Source: Lachnospiraceae bacterium (GTDB taxonomy: Bacteria; Bacillota; Clostridia; Lachnospirales; Lachnospiraceae). Taken from it: a DNA stretch of 64,000 nt. The position numbers and the translations under genes were made by a program. Position 1 is the stretch's first letter, and each line of letters starts with the position of its first letter. Location of the stretch: NCBI GenBank assembly GCA_017500935.1, contig JAFVXW010000085.1, forward strand, positions 1-64,000. Reading direction: 5' to 3'. The notes below the pieces were generated by a model. It worked only from the letters and a program-made list of their open reading frames with translations, did no database searches and was not told the origin of the DNA. Positions 4,617 through 35,590 of the stretch are shown piece after piece.

Positions 4617-7073
4617 TTATGTAAACTTAATTACATATTCTTTCCCCGCTATTGTATCAAAAGATAATACCTCTCCTTCCATCCGATATTCTTCGATTCC
4701 AGGATCACCTATCATCTTCTGTCCTTTCGGAACACAGATTCTGCAGTTTTTTCCACAGCGGGAATAAATTTTCATGCTGGTCAGCTTATGGTTTTCCCAG
4801 TAAATGTCCGTTACAAATCCATTGCGCCCTGCAATTCCTGTCATGGAACCTGTCTCCAGTTCTGACGGAAGAGCGGCCAGCGGCGTGATCACTCCATCAC
4901 TGTCCTGATAAAACAGCTCTGCTATGGCGGATATCAGACAGATCTGTGCATCCACCTGCATGACCTTATGACCCGGAAACCACGGAATACCATATCCTTT
5001 GTTCTCATAATCATTGGTAGCCATCATCATATTATCCAGCATAAACGGCAGCAACAGGTAAATCCGTTCAAAAGCTTCCTGACTCCGCCCATATCTGGCC
5101 ATAATCTGTGCATCCCATGCAAATGAAAAAGAAGTGGAAGCTCCTTTGCCCGCCGCCAGGCGTCTGGCAAGCAATTTTTCCAGACCGTCACATACATCGG
5201 GCATACTTCTTTTGTTGATATAGCTGCCCGGGCAGAACGAAACCCATGGTGAACGGTGCCGATGTCCCGGTTCTGTTTCTTCATGTTTTTGCGTCCACTC
5301 TGTGATACAACCCTCTTCATCGATCGGAAGCTCCCTTATTTTTTCAAGCAGCTTCGCATATTTCTCTGCTGTCTGCGGTTTTTCCAGCTGCTGTGCCGCT
5401 GTCATGACATGCGCAAACAATTCTTTGGTCAGGGAAAGATCGATCGTGGATGCTGAAGAAAGCCACTGTATCTTTCCATCCTCTATAAGTCCCATTTCCG
5501 GTGAAGCTCCAAAGGGATAGGTCAGTTTTCCCTCCTCTTCAACAAGCATTTCCTCCAGAAACTCTGCTGCACTCAAAAAGACAGGATATATCCGTTTCAA
5601 TAACTTATCACTCATGTCATGCTCATAATAGATCCAGAGAATCTGCATCAGCCATGCAGTAGCTGTCAGCCAGGTCGCACCTACATTATCTGTGTTTCCC
5701 AACACATTTGGATCACAGCATCCATTAAAAGCAATTCCTCCGGCACCATAAAGCTGTTTTGCACGCTGCCGCGCCTGCCCCGAAAGGCGTTCTATCCATT
5801 CTAAATAAGGTTCATACCATTCTATGAGTCCGGCACTCACCAACGGCCAGTAGCACATCTCAATATTTAAGTCGGTATGATAATCACTATCCCATGCAGG
5901 ACGGGTATCCCGATTCCAAATTCCCTGCAGATTGATCGGAGCCTTGGATACTGCCCCTTCAGGCTGAGGCATACCGGATGCAATAGCAATATAGCGGGCT
6001 GCATTATACATCAGCTCCGTCATAAACGCCGTCATTACACCAGTCTCCAACGCTTCCTGTATGCGCATCGGTGTCGTTTTCTCAGGTTTTTCATCAACTC
6101 CTGCTCCCAACCGCAGGCAGACACGGTCATAAAAAGAAGAAAAATGCTTTCTGTGTATTTGTTCCATTTCCAAAAAAGCAGGTGTTTTTCCGGTCTTTTC
6201 CATGCAGTACGATACAGGGTCATCGGTTTCATCATCTACTGCGATCCCAATTATCAGTGTCACTTCATCGCAGCTGTCAAAATAAAATGACGGTCCCCGG
6301 GAAAAATTCACTGAAGTATCCCTGTCAAACACATACTCCAGACCGAATTTCTTTTCGGGCATTTCTTCATTTTCTGTTCCATAGGTACGTTTTCCCATGG
6401 TAATGCGGCCATTTTTATGCAGTATGCGGACTGCACCGCCAAATTTCCTTCCTTCTTCAAATGCAGCAGAAATGGTAAGATATCCATATCCGGCATCCCC
6501 TGTCACACTGCATTCCGGATCCAGAATACGTGATAAGGACACCTCTCCCGTAAGCCGTCCCGGTGCAGAAGCTGTCAGATGCATTACCACTACACCGCTA
6601 TCATAAGAACAAAAGGAGGTTCTGTGATATCTGATATCACCGCTGACAAATTCTGTACACACCACTCCATGTCTCATATCCAGACCGCGGCGATACTCTG
6701 TGATGTTTTCCGAGGGCAGAGCCATGTTCAGATACAGATCAAATGCCGGAACAAACGGATTTATATAGATCGCATTTCCCGTATACGCCACTGTTTCCTC
6801 CAACAGCTTTTCAGCCTCTGCCCACCTGTCCTGCATAGCCAGTTCTTTGATTTCCGGCATGTCCTGATATGTCTGAAATTCAGGACTCTTCAGATAGGAT
6901 CTCCATAAGCGGTCATGGTTAAGCGCCACCATCTCTTTTTGTGGATCGCAATATACCATTGCACCCAGCCTTCCATTGCTAATTGGATAGGCTTCTGCCC
7001 AATCAGAAGCTGGTTTGGTATCCCAGATAAATGAGGAGGATGCTGCATTTTCAAAATAATCTGTTTTTTTCAT
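4617..7073 (-). CDS. GH95 alpha-L-fucosidase or related glycosidase
   Basis: This 818-residue protein matches GH95 end to end: N-terminal beta-sandwich with EAYPISNGRLGAMVYCDP and LNHDRLW, an (alpha/alpha)6 barrel with the general acid Glu526 in GASPEMG, and a C-terminal beta domain. GH95 enzymes are inverting and mostly remove alpha-1,2-fucose or L-galactose. Odd: where the Bifidobacterium enzyme has an Asn-x-Asn pair that activates water, this protein reads Asp401-Leu-Asn403 (DLNIEMCYW). The ATG at 7073 is preferred over the TTG at 7079 because AGAGG is 8 bases from it. It has its own promoter (7132-7160), no signal peptide, and heads the 3-gene tail of the locus. Confidence 0.85.
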   Translation of the reverse strand: MKKTDYFENAASSSFIWDTKPASDWAEAYPISNGRLGAMVYCDPQKEMVALNHDRLWRSYLKSPEFQTYQDMPEIKELAMQDRWAEAEKLLEETVAYTGNAIYINPFVPAFDLYLNMALPSENITEYRRGLDMRHGVVCTEFVSGDIRYHRTSFCSYDSGVVVMHLTASAPGRLTGEVSLSRILDPECSVTGDAGYGYLTISAAFEEGRKFGGAVRILHKNGRITMGKRTYGTENEEMPEKKFGLEYVFDRDTSVNFSRGPSFYFDSCDEVTLIIGIAVDDETDDPVSYCMEKTGKTPAFLEMEQIHRKHFSSFYDRVCLRLGAGVDEKPEKTTPMRIQEALETGVMTAFMTELMYNAARYIAIASGMPQPEGAVSKAPINLQGIWNRDTRPAWDSDYHTDLNIEMCYWPLVSAGLIEWYEPYLEWIERLSGQARQRAKQLYGAGGIAFNGCCDPNVLGNTDNVGATWLTATAWLMQILWIYYEHDMSDKLLKRIYPVFLSAAEFLEEMLVEEEGKLTYPFGASPEMGLIEDGKIQWLSSASTIDLSLTKELFAHVMTAAQQLEKPQTAEKYAKLLEKIRELPIDEEGCITEWTQKHEETEPGHRHRSPWVSFCPGSYINKRSMPDVCDGLEKLLARRLAAGKGASTSFSFAWDAQIMARYGRSQEAFERIYLLLPFMLDNMMMATNDYENKGYGIPWFPGHKVMQVDAQICLISAIAELFYQDSDGVITPLAALPSELETGSMTGIAGRNGFVTDIYWENHKLTSMKIYSRCGKNCRICVPKGQKMIGDPGIEEYRMEGEVLSFDTIAGKEYVIKFT

Positions 7074-32610: not shown

Positions 32611-33525
32611 ATGGCTAAAAATTTCGGAAAATTATTTGCATTTGCTGCGATCGCAGGCGCTGCAGCAGCAGGCACTTACTATTATTTACAGAAAAAGAAC
32701 GGCGCACCCGTTTGCAGTGATGCATGTGATGCTGATACCTGCACCGGCTGTGCAGATGACATCTGCGAAGATGCTGATTTTGTGGAAGTTCCTGTGGAGG
32801 AGGATGCTGCAGAAGCAGCTTTTGAAGAATCTGATTTTGCAGATTCCGATTTCGATGAGGATGACTTTGAAGACGAATCTGATTTTGTGGATGAATCCGT
32901 AAAGGAACGCATTTTCCGCAAAGGCACCAATGAACAGGGACACACCTATGTAACCCTTGACTTAAAGGCTGCACAGCATAAAGCTGTTAATATTTATGAT
33001 AATGTTGCTTCCAAAGTAACCGACACCGTTACCAAGATCAAAAACAGCAACGAATACAACAATGTAACCACAAAGATCTCTGATACCGTTACCAAGGTTA
33101 AAAACAGCAACGAATATCAGAACATGGGCAGTCAGCTTGAAAACGCCCTCAACAAAGTGCGCGAGGCCACCGAAAAAGCTGCCGGCAAAGTGGAAGAAAA
33201 ATTAAAATCCACCGCACATGTGGCAGAGGATATCTGCGAAGACGCTGCTGAGGCTGCTGAAGACATCATCGAAGATGCAGCTGAAATTGTGGAAGATGTA
33301 TGCGAAGAAGCTGCTGAAGCAGTGGAAGAAGCCTGCGAATGCAACTGCAACTGCACTTGTGAAGCAGCTGAAGAAACCTGCGAATGTGCAGAAGAAGCTT
33401 GCTGCGGCGAAGCTGCTGCCGAAACCTGCACCTGCAGTGAAGAGCCCTGCTGCTGCGATGTTGCTGCAGAGGAAGCAATCCCCATGGATGAGGCTGATAA
33501 AAAGGAAGAGGAATTTTCCCTGTAA
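32611..33525 (+). CDS. Acidic Cys-rich membrane-anchored protein, metallothionein-like tail
   Basis: I do not recognise a described family. The 304-residue protein has one N-terminal membrane helix or uncleaved signal (about 6-26, FGKLFAFAAIAGAAAAGTYY), then five cysteines in CSDAC and CTGC patterns, a very acidic stretch (about 57-95), a basic-neutral amphipathic helical region (about 108-200) containing a 20-residue tandem duplication, and an Ala/Glu/Cys tail (about 205-290) with 16 cysteines in CECNCNCTC, CEC, CC, CTC and CCC clusters. The tail looks metal-binding. The helical middle resembles LEA or YtxH-type stress proteins. GGAGG lies 8 bases before the ATG, and a strong terminator follows. 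Monocistronic and divergent from the TetR gene. Confidence 0.8.
   Translation: MAKNFGKLFAFAAIAGAAAAGTYYYLQKKNGAPVCSDACDADTCTGCADDICEDADFVEVPVEEDAAEAAFEESDFADSDFDEDDFEDESDFVDESVKERIFRKGTNEQGHTYVTLDLKAAQHKAVNIYDNVASKVTDTVTKIKNSNEYNNVTTKISDTVTKVKNSNEYQNMGSQLENALNKVREATEKAAGKVEEKLKSTAHVAEDICEDAAEAAEDIIEDAAEIVEDVCEEAAEAVEEACECNCNCTCEAAEETCECAEEACCGEAAAETCTCSEEPCCCDVAAEEAIPMDEADKKEEEFSL
33001..33120 (+). repeat. 60-bp in-frame tandem duplication inside the Cys-rich gene
   Basis: Bases 33001-33060 and 33061-33120 are two adjacent, diverged copies of one 60-bp unit; both end in AAAAACAGCAACGAATA plus a short tail. Each encodes 20 residues of the form DTVTKxKNSNEY. The unit length is a multiple of three, so the frame is kept. 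Confidence 0.85.
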
Positions 33526-33548
33526 TTAACGGAAATGGATACAATATT

Positions 33549-33580
33549 CGAGGCTGAGCTTAAAGCTCAGCCTCGTTTTT
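33549..33580 (+). terminator. Intrinsic terminator after the Cys-rich gene
   Basis: CGAGGCTGAGCTT pairs with AAGCTCAGCCTCG with almost no loop, followed by five Ts. Confidence 0.9.
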
Positions 33581-33641
33581 GCCTGGTTTCATGCAGATTT
33601 ATGAAAATAGCACTTTTTGCATGTATATGTTATGTAAACAA

Positions 33642-34020
33642 ACATGTAAATTAGCTCAAAACAAGCTTTTTACATGTTTATTTTTTGGTCCCAACATGTA
33701 AAATAACAAATTCTGACTCTTTTACATGTCACTTCAACTCGCTCTAACATGTAAATCTCTAAAAATCAAGACTTTTGCATGTCAAACTTTCCTTCCCCCA
33801 AGATATACAACATGTAAAATCTCAAAAATCAAGCTTTTTACATGCTGATACCCATTATGTGTACACGAAGGAGTCAAAAAAACATGCTTCTTACATGTTG
33901 GACCCCCTGTGTGTACACGCAGAAATCCCAAAAAACATGCTTCTTACATGTTGGCCCCCTAAACATGTACACGCAGGACATCCCAAAAACAGCTTCTTTA
34001 CATGTTGACGCCAAATATTG
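33642..34020. repeat. Degenerate tandem array of ACATGT-containing palindromic repeats
   Basis: This is the main gene-free stretch over 300 bases (33526-34059). ACATGT or one-base variants occur at 33642, 33672, 33694, 33724, 33747, 33777, 33810, 33840, 33882, 33893, 33935, 33946, 33963 and 34000. In the first four units the two copies are exactly 30 bases apart and form inverted repeats, ACATGTAAA ... TTTACATGT; units recur every 52-63 bases. The later units are a variant with ACATGCTTCTTACATGTTGG, period 53, plus GTGTACACGCAG. The unit is not a multiple of three, so it is not a coding repeat. No function is known to me. Confidence 0.85.
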
Positions 34021-34059
34021 ACGCCAAATCTCGCCGCCCCAACTTTCCCAAAACCTATT

Positions 34060-35472
34060 CTATATCCCCCACGCCTTCCTTAAAAACGAAATCCCTTTCA
34101 CAATCTCCTCCTGCGTCAAGCCGCCGAATCCCAGCAGAATAGTCGCTTTCCACGCCTTTTCCTGTTCCAAAGAAAGCGGCTGCACAAGTGCCCCTTTCAT
34201 GCCATAGACCCGCACGCCTGCTCCGGCAGCAGCCGCGATCAGTTCTTCTTCACTCCTGCCCTGCCTGTCTGTCAGCAAAATATGCAGACCCGCATTTTCT
34301 CCGGACAGCACAAAATCCTTCTGAAAATCCTTTAACTGTTCCAGCAGCACTTCATGTTTTTCCTTATAGAGCTTGCGCATACGGTTTAAATGCCGTTCAA
34401 AAGCGCCGTCCCTGATAAATTCATTTAAGATCGTCTGATCGATTCTGGACACTGTGGAAGAAAAGAAAGAATAATTTTCTTCATACCGGCGCAGCAGCTG
34501 CTTGGGAAGTACCATGTAGCTGACACGGATCGCAGGTGCAATGGACTTGGAAACCGTTCCGATATATACCACCTTTCCGGTCTGGTCAGAGGCCTGCAGC
34601 GAGGGAATCGGTTTTCCTCTGTAACGGAATTCACTGTCATAATCGTCCTCAATAATATAGCGGTCCGTTGCGTGACTTGCCCAGTTTAACAGCTCCATAC
34701 GTCTGCCAATGGGCATGACCACACCGCGGGGATACTGATGGGAAGGCATGACATATACAGCATTGGCATCTGTTTTTTTCAGTTCATCCACACTGATTCC
34801 GTTTTCGTCTGCAGAAACTGTCAAAAGCTTTTTTGCCAAAAGTCCCAGAATCTTCCAGGCACGCGGATAGGTAGGATTTTCAAAGGCGATCACACTATCC
34901 CTTCCCAAAATATACCCAAGCAGAGTCAGCAGATAATCATTTCCGGCTCCCACAATGATCTGCTCTGCGCTGCAGTTGACGCCGCGGGATGCATGCAGAT
35001 AGCGGGCGATCGTCTCCCGAAGTGCCAGATCTCCTTTGGGCTCTCCCAGAGAAAAGGTTTCACTTTTATCCTGTGAAAGTGTGTTTTTGGTAATTTTACG
35101 CCAGGTTTCAAAAGGAAACACACGCATGTCAATGGCATTGGGAGAAAAATCAAATGCACAGGTATTTGTCCGCAAAGCAGATTCCGGCTTATGTTTTTCT
35201 TTGCTGCCGTCAATCCGGTAAAGCTCCTCCACCTGCGCCACATAGTAACCCTTATAGGGAACAGATTCGATATAGCCTTCTGACAACAGCTGCTCGTAAG
35301 CCAGTTCCACCGTAGCCCGCGACACCTGCAGGTATGCTGCCAGATAACGGGTGGACGGCAGTTTTTCGCCGCATAAAAGCCGTCCGGTTCTGATTTCCTC
35401 CCGGATATGCTGATAAATCTGCTCATACAGATGACTGCCGTCATAACGCAGTTCGATAACCAGATCCTGCAT
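34060..35472 (-). CDS. MocR/GabR-type regulator (GntR HTH fused to aminotransferase fold)
   Basis: The 470-residue protein has a GntR winged helix (about 10-75: HLYEQIYQHIREEIRTGRLL, LPSTRYLAAYLQVSRATV) joined by a linker to a class I aminotransferase-like domain (about 110-470) with the PLP lysine in GTVSKSIAPAIR and the YIIEDDYDSEFRY motif. MocR regulators use PLP-bound amino compounds as effectors; PdxR and GabR are examples, but the target here is not visible, since no aminotransferase or PLP gene is adjacent. The ATG at 35472 is preferred because AAGGAG is 6 bases upstream; longer starts run into a hairpin. It lies between the ACATGT array and glnS. Confidence 0.92.
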   Translation of the reverse strand: MQDLVIELRYDGSHLYEQIYQHIREEIRTGRLLCGEKLPSTRYLAAYLQVSRATVELAYEQLLSEGYIESVPYKGYYVAQVEELYRIDGSKEKHKPESALRTNTCAFDFSPNAIDMRVFPFETWRKITKNTLSQDKSETFSLGEPKGDLALRETIARYLHASRGVNCSAEQIIVGAGNDYLLTLLGYILGRDSVIAFENPTYPRAWKILGLLAKKLLTVSADENGISVDELKKTDANAVYVMPSHQYPRGVVMPIGRRMELLNWASHATDRYIIEDDYDSEFRYRGKPIPSLQASDQTGKVVYIGTVSKSIAPAIRVSYMVLPKQLLRRYEENYSFFSSTVSRIDQTILNEFIRDGAFERHLNRMRKLYKEKHEVLLEQLKDFQKDFVLSGENAGLHILLTDRQGRSEEELIAAAAGAGVRVYGMKGALVQPLSLEQEKAWKATILLGFGGLTQEEIVKGISFLRKAWGI

Positions 35473-35550
35473 AAAAAACTCCTTTTTTTCCAAAACAGGT
35501 ATTGCCTGCGATTGCCCCAAAAGCCGCCTGCACCATACCCGCCTGTACAA

Positions 35551-35590
35551 GCACAGCCGCACCCGGTATACCGGGCACGGCTGCTTTTTT
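35551..35590. terminator. Strong hairpin between glnS and the MocR gene
   Basis: GCACAGCCGCACCCGGTA pairs with the following TACCGGGCACGGCTGC. Six Ts follow on the plus strand, but the flanking genes are on the minus strand, where the following run (TGCTTGT) is poor. It may end glnS transcripts weakly or stop antisense transcripts. Confidence 0.55.

Follow-up and report, generated by a model that had tools for sequence, protein, structure and literature searches.

The 64,000-nt stretch of Lachnospiraceae DNA analysed here (hereafter the window) carries an array of ACATGT palindromes in the 534 bases that separate the stop of a Cys-rich gene (33525) from the stop of a mocR gene (34060). The protein encoded by the latter is PdxR-like and matches NCBIfam model NF052282 above its curated cut-off; its open reading frame was listed with a start at 35562, and searches were run with 34063-35490. 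Exact copies of ACATGT occur ten times and single-mismatch copies six times across 33591-34040. In 1000 dinucleotide-preserving shuffles of 33601-34030 (ca. 430 bases), the exact motif appeared 0.37 times on average and three times at most, compared with ten copies in the actual sequence, so the array described for this gap in a first-pass annotation is real. When the array was compared with plasmid and phage sequences by distant BLAST, nothing matched, and an Rfam scan of 33500-34100 gave 13 matches, all well under their gathering scores.

When read in register, the array comprises 16 positions in eight units, 12 with at most one mismatch and four with two mismatches that were assigned by register. 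Successive intervals are 30, 23, 30, 22, 30, 23, 30, 33, 30, 23, 30, 22, 31, 23 and 31 bp. Spacings of 30 bp thus alternate with spacings of 22-23 bp, interrupted by a single 33, and the usual period is 53 bp. The fourth-last site lies at 33915 and was taken as 33916 in the pooled count given below. The earlier statement that four consecutive units have their two copies exactly 30 bases apart was borne out (33642/33672, 33694/33724, 33747/33777 and 33810/33840), with one mismatch on one side only in the third and fourth pairs. Not every copy fits the register: among 16 that are exact or carry a single mismatch, four fall outside it (33625, 33882, 33935 and the exact copy at 33963). The diverged upstream unit (33589/33619) and the regularity of the second interval are additions to that description. 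Units of the GTGTACACG subtype stay roughly in register with the rest of the array, their left in-register sites reading ACACGA or ACACGC at 33863, 33915 and 33969, each with two mismatches and assigned by register. Tandem Repeats Finder (TRF) reported a repeat with a period of 53, 3.6 copies and 78% matches at 33817-34007. The bases flanking the sites are mostly TTTACATGT.

Table 1. Coordinates of the array, its neighbours and the sister arrays (window positions unless a contig is named)
Feature	Position	Strand	Description
Cys-rich/acidic gene, 304 aa	32611..33525	+	Neighbour ending before the array
Terminator-like hairpin	33549..33580	+	12-pair stem and T run (consensus scan); between Cys-rich gene and array
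Whole array	33589..34005	.	16 register positions, 8 units of ~53 bp
Unit a	33589..33624	.	Diverged TCATGC / GCATGT pair
Unit b	33642..33677	.	Two ACATGT, 30 bp apart
Unit c	33694..33729	.	Two ACATGT, 30 bp apart
Unit d	33747..33782	.	ACATGT / GCATGT, 30 bp apart; the array's single 33-bp interval comes next
Unit e	33810..33845	.	ACATGT / ACATGC, 30 bp apart
Units f-h (second subtype)	33863..34005	.	Similar tandem copies (repeat family D2); left sites ACACGA/ACACGC inside or adjoining GTGTACACG (ACATGTACACG in the third unit); ACATGT as right site at 33893, 33946, 34000
mocR gene	34060..35472	-	PdxR-like, convergent with Cys-rich gene; start = ATG 35472
Array 2	contig C74, ~136.1-136.4 kb		Near stop of URO-D-like gene
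Array 3	contig C86, ~64.3-64.6 kb		Near stop of prfA
Array 4	contig C84, ~96.3-96.5 kb		Near stop of Nudix gene

Sister arrays and conservation among relatives

Pattern searches located three further arrays in the same 3.56-Mb assembly (G000, 87 contigs), which makes four or more in this genome, as the patterns may have missed others. All four lie between listed open reading frames and within ca. 115 bp of some gene stop. Arrays 2, 3 and 4 also precede a gene, the listed start of which follows at ca. 115, 76 and 120 bp, unlike the window array, which sits between two gene ends. The genes downstream of the arrays have no common theme. The URO-D-like gene next to array 2 scores below the Pfam cut-off, and the gene beside array 3 is presumably prfA, a name that we assigned from its sequence.

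The pooled arrays contain 42 register sites, 24 of them exact and 34 with at most one mismatch; the other eight carry two or three mismatches and were assigned by register. The 38 register intervals measure 29-31 bp in 20 cases, 22-23 bp in ten and 33 bp in eight, in alternation. A safer count, confined to intervals of at most 40 bp between adjacent exact sites, places 14 of 16 at 22-23, 30-31 or 33 bp, and the two exceptions (17 and 37 bp) surround the off-register site at 33963. The pair period is mostly 53 bp in arrays 1 (the window array) and 2 compared with 63 bp in arrays 3 and 4, corresponding to about five and six helical turns. The four loci are unrelated and have rows of 5 to 16 sites. 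Orientation, as judged from flanking bases, can be read clearly in the first two arrays but less so in arrays 3 and 4. Scattered matches with two or three mismatches elsewhere in the genome (C32 twice, C53, C63 and C84:92453) were taken as chance; a reversed control pattern gave 4 and 3 matches. The three-site 23-bp pattern with mismatches was run on this genome only.

Two other sequences were seen near the sister arrays. A palindrome-rich segment, CTGTCTGGCTTCGCC...GCGAGGTAGCG, occurs in two tandem copies near array 2 (L007, ca. 5890-6070) and is possibly another dispersed repeat. Between array 4 and the open reading frame at 1752 (L061), CGAACAAAAGTTCG lies upstream of a Y-family polymerase gene and is presumably a sequence of SOS-box type.

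Whether the unit is a genome-wide repeat had been raised in the first-pass annotation. Three more arrays exist in this genome; the two patterns used found no array in 12 other genomes of the same genus. In the 33-bp search, three of these genomes (G005, G006 and G008) gave one near-identical two-mismatch match each, coding-like by eye and counted as misses. ACATGT was found within 600 bp 3' of mocR at none of seven orthologous loci (66-73% identity), compared with ten copies here. MocR and TetR had been suggested as binding partners. Neither is supported, as the array lies 3' of mocR, all seven orthologous loci are without ACATGT in those 600 bp and the sister arrays adjoin other genes.

Across 397 genomes of the family, a set in which the genus itself is represented by G000 and G009, an exact three-site match was found in five (G000, G027, G375, G358 and G370). 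The single loci in G358 and G370 were taken as chance or another repeat. A 21-bp GGACATGTCC repeat pattern matched 113 times in G027 and 79 times in G375, two species from one genus of the same family, and the flanks there (GGGGACATGTCC) differ from the TTTACATGT of the window array. In 26 distinct arrays of these two genomes, intervals are 20-21 bp in 64 cases and 29-31 bp in eight, with none between, at loci fetched with patterns that asked for roughly those same spacings. Comparison of six orthologous array pairs showed differences at 6 of 150 site positions versus 43 of 312 linker positions (Fisher p 0.001), or 0 of 120 versus 23 of 252 without one pair that differs in copy number; the loci had been retrieved by exact site patterns, which biases the comparison toward conserved sites. 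The earlier rule that an array missing from related strains would be a random satellite does not settle the matter, since two related geometries are common to four arrays whose linkers have almost nothing in common.

Sites, linkers and folding

Site identity averages 77% over the 42 register sites. With all units included, linker identity in the 30-bp pairs is 52% within arrays, compared with 32% in shuffles, and 37% between arrays, compared with 31%; the site/linker contrast is favoured by the motif-based finding of the arrays. After trimming, by which four bases were removed from each end and the late units of array 1 excluded, linkers are 43% identical within arrays compared with 33% in shuffles (maximum of 500 shuffles, 40%), and 31% identical between arrays compared with 29% (maximum 33%). 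So the units of one array arose by tandem duplication; their linkers drifted, and sites and spacing were kept.

Hairpin covariation was considered and rejected, as linkers pair with their own partner no better than with cross-pair controls. Over eight positions, complementarity in the 30-bp linkers was 0.38 for the own partner and 0.41 for other units of the same array; the corresponding values were 0.33 and 0.33 for the 22-23-bp linkers and 0.34 and 0.34 for the 33-bp linkers. By eye, a few pairs seem to be compensated; these were left uncounted and can be explained by a G that is shared at the inner A. The window array as a whole folds better than shuffled sequences (z of -6.5 on the plus and -7.1 on the minus strand), which does not decide the question because copies of one palindrome can always pair. 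When six 36-nt units of the window array were folded individually as DNA, four were beaten by 0-1 of 200 shuffles, and the units at 33589 and 33863 were matched by 33 and 37 of 200. The sign of the strand skew of the array equals the sign of the local skew at all four loci, as expected of neutral linker bases.

Conserved sites joined by linkers that lack pairing with their own partner favour duplex binding over hairpins. Of the readings proposed earlier, a multimeric protein-binding array fits and hairpin RNA is weakened by the unpaired linkers. The features that fit protein binding are the palindromic form of the sites, their almost constant spacing, the drift of the linkers and the 10-bp step from 53 to 63 bp. 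The helical-phase argument is suggestive only and draws on few independent events.

Y1 transposases and look-alike arrays

No Y1_Tnp domain (Pfam) was detected in the array-bearing genome, the assembly of which is 95% complete; seven of the 12 genomes searched have matches. A protein search with one Y1 gene matched 54 of 299 family genomes, this one not among them, and a search for a Y1 relic in the four array neighbourhoods found none (best E 0.09). G027 and G375 each gave a single Y1_Tnp gene, which is preceded by three sites and followed by four or five, all 21 bp apart. The Bacteroidales genome G434 (MAG RGIG5088) has arrays on eight contigs, mostly with 24/29-bp spacing and a period of 53, with linkers that by eye are unrelated on several contigs and alike on others (C59 and C219); its single detected Y1_Tnp gene sits between two arrays. 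Flanking on both sides was seen at four of 45 Y1 locus entries (L188, L189, L191 and L268), representing three genes from two lineages since L268 and L189 are one gene, and an array was contained in none of 29 control loci from the mocR search. Among 30 Y1 loci fetched with the G027 gene (that gene and 29 relatives, with upstream and downstream windows overlapping at a few short loci), such arrays were present at the G027 locus alone. In four other genomes with ACATGT arrays (G435, G437, G438 and G440) the Y1 gene is unflanked, and their arrays differ in spacing from the flanked ones. G432 and G433, whose spacing is closest to that of the window array (one locus each, exact pattern), gave no Y1 match.

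The NCBIfam model of the REP-associated tyrosine transposase matches both flanked Y1 proteins (2.5e-20 and 4.3e-8), under its cut-off. In an alignment of 29 Y1 proteins, Y1_Tnp was recognized in 27 and HTH_23 in nine (E 0.01), and several have ends that resemble an HTH when inspected by eye; the flanked proteins P0001, L189 and L191 matched none of the HTH families. Judging from their relatives, the flanked proteins probably belong to RAYT group 1, subclass 2.1 (TIRYTs).

All look-alike arrays were retrieved via ACATGT at set distances, so that their common core and, in part, their common spacing reflect how the matches were chosen. An array search across 17 genomes gave a match in 12. The scan of contig collections, which is no census, returned at least 97 stretches, and 80 loci were examined among the matches listed; these mix look-alikes (L083, L071, L142 and Acidobacteria) with other repeats, coding matches and one CRISPR-like array. 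Periods off whole turns, for example 23+23 or 24+24, occur in other ACATGT arrays. Several Acidobacteria MAGs (L134, L148, L072, L106 and others) have many ACATGT arrays with 31/33-bp alternation and a period of 64, and in G435 the one Y1 gene found does not adjoin them. In a Bacteroidales MAG, SRR5666658_bin.39 (G436), several contigs (L077, L079, L087, L088, L114, L123 and L141) bear 22-bp tandem arrays of ACATGT, and its genome gave no Y1_Tnp match.

Known repeat systems and interpretation

We compared the arrays with four known systems. BIMEs and RAYT transposases are described in PMC2817692, where the copy number of REP sequences is given as usually over 100 per genome. Like these elements, arrays of the window type are extragenic, palindromic, regularly spaced and of alternating orientation at several loci, and repeats flank the Y1 gene in G434, G027 and G375. 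In contrast, the window array contains neither GT[AG]G nor CGTC on either strand (GT[AG]G occurs 4, 2 and 3 times at any position in arrays 2, 3 and 4), stems are weak and linkers unpaired, the copy number is low (four loci and 42 register sites by the patterns used), and a cognate flanked RAYT went undetected in the genome. A literature search on REP in Lachnospiraceae yielded nothing on point, as judged by titles.

For TIRYT Y1 genes, PMC3733652 and PMC6006769 report a C-terminal HTH and flanking inverted repeats, some of them self-complementary and clustered. GGGGWSAS is present in some of these inverted repeats according to the 2013 paper (PMC3733652), and the 2018 survey states that REP-like sequences were not found for TnpA-Y1 subclass 2.1 (PMC6006769). 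The likeness to this TIRYT/TIRtron class (RAYT group 1, TnpA-Y1 subclass 2.1) is that GGGGACAT in G027 and G375 fits seven of the eight GGGGWSAS positions. The window array differs in that its flanks are without GGGG, GGGGWSAS is not found in it, and a Y1 gene between inverted repeats was not detected in its genome. We class the array as resembling REP/BIME and TIRYT elements, not as a member of either, because several of their defining features were not found in it.

A short palindromic motif at regular spacing also recalls CRISPR. However, the window repeat measures 6-10 bp, linkers within an array are related, no Rfam family reaches its threshold, and near-identical repeats with unrelated spacers are not what the window array shows. 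One CRISPR-like array was encountered in a Helicobacteraceae MAG (L137; 50 repeats, period ca. 65), the repeat of which contains ACATGT. Operator or iteron arrays share spaced palindromes and the position of arrays 2-4 upstream of a gene, and in phage contigs four ACATGT sites stand in a row next to a replication gene; the arrays of this genome differ in having 5-16 sites each and in occurring at four loci unrelated to one another, and the window array lies between gene ends. The phage rows were seen in IMG/VR contigs (L231, L242, L246, L253, L254, L258, L260, L264 and L237) as four ACATGT copies spaced 24/30/34 bp or mirrored. In L253 and L258 the row lies between a large gene and a 64-aa gene in an operator-like position; the large gene in L253 is a G2P-type replication protein by Pfam, and the 64-aa gene has no Pfam match above cut-off.

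Our preferred reading, to which we give a probability of roughly 0.4, is that the array may be a set of helix-phased duplex sites for a dimeric protein and an orphan BIME- or TIR-like cluster of RAYT/TIRYT type. A dimeric protein would bind double-stranded DNA, one dimer per ACATGT, with site pairs at 30 bp recurring at a period of 53 or 63 bp, close to five or six turns. The whole-turn period would place successive pairs on the same face of the helix and allow a cooperative nucleoprotein filament. In origin, the arrays would belong with the palindromic repeats that Y1 transposases of RAYT/TIRYT type have in clusters (BIMEs or TIR clusters), having grown by tandem duplication of units, and would share an ancestry with the look-alikes. 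Because no such transposase was detected here, the arrays would be orphans, and the protein that serves them is probably a different one or one since lost. Two links are weakest: the transposase, which is undetected in the genome itself, and the look-alikes, which were chosen by ACATGT at set distances. An extension that we regard as plainly unlikely is that group-1 Y1 (TIRYT-like) proteins recognize long helix-phased arrays of duplex palindromes via their C-terminal HTH, not single hairpins, and that such arrays outlive the gene and here, in its absence, are maintained by selection as an intergenic nucleoprotein scaffold of the chromosome.

A host nucleoid, segregation or regulatory protein might instead bind the phased ACATGT sites with no tie to a transposase, so that arrays 2-4 could be operators. 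This is somewhat on the unlikely side. The undetected transposase, the gene starts downstream of arrays 2-4 and the four-site rows (24/30/34 bp) that recur in phage contigs, with a G2P replication gene on one side and a 64-aa gene on the other, all speak for it. Against it, no candidate protein presents itself, sister species lack arrays by the patterns used, the window array is bounded by two gene ends, and the genes downstream have no theme in common. Because arrays 2-4 are also upstream of genes, we weighed this explanation up and the transposon-derived reading down. A working REP/BIME system, in which single-stranded hairpins are cut and moved by a RAYT encoded in the missing part of the assembly, seems very unlikely. 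Adjacent sites can form hairpins, four of six window units folding better than nearly all shuffles, and the last window units are tandem copies; against this stand the two units at 33589 and 33863 that fold unremarkably, the undetected Y1_Tnp with four loci found, linkers unpaired beyond the bases adjoining the sites, and linker homology between loci that is almost nil and gives no sign of recent copying.

We give a still slimmer chance to a decaying satellite, i.e. an old, functionless tandem repeat of a palindromic unit. Tandem descent is evident in the linker homology within arrays, the skew of the arrays follows the local sign at all four loci, and eight of the 42 register sites carry two or three mismatches. 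However, sites are 77% identical compared with 43% for trimmed within-array linkers (a contrast favoured by motif-based finding), and related geometry is kept in four arrays despite nearly unrelated linkers. Least probable of all is an RNA role, in which transcription of the array would give consecutive stem-loops that serve as a terminator or 3' stabilizer. The location near gene ends, the whole-array fold scores and a terminator-like hairpin with ACATGC arms next to array 2 (by eye) point towards it, but complementarity of own pairs is not above control, the Rfam matches all fall far under gathering score, and a distinct terminator-like hairpin already precedes the window array.

Should the reading as orphan, transposon-derived duplex sites be correct, the arrays would represent a repeat in which geometry is conserved instead of linker sequence. 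They would further be tied to a transposase group for which, in the 2018 survey (PMC6006769), no REP-like sequences were identified. Because the periods of 53 and 63 bp are one helical turn apart, duplex binding could be tested cleanly, and comparing arrays that have a Y1 gene with those that lack one may offer a route to asking how such arrays persist after gene loss.
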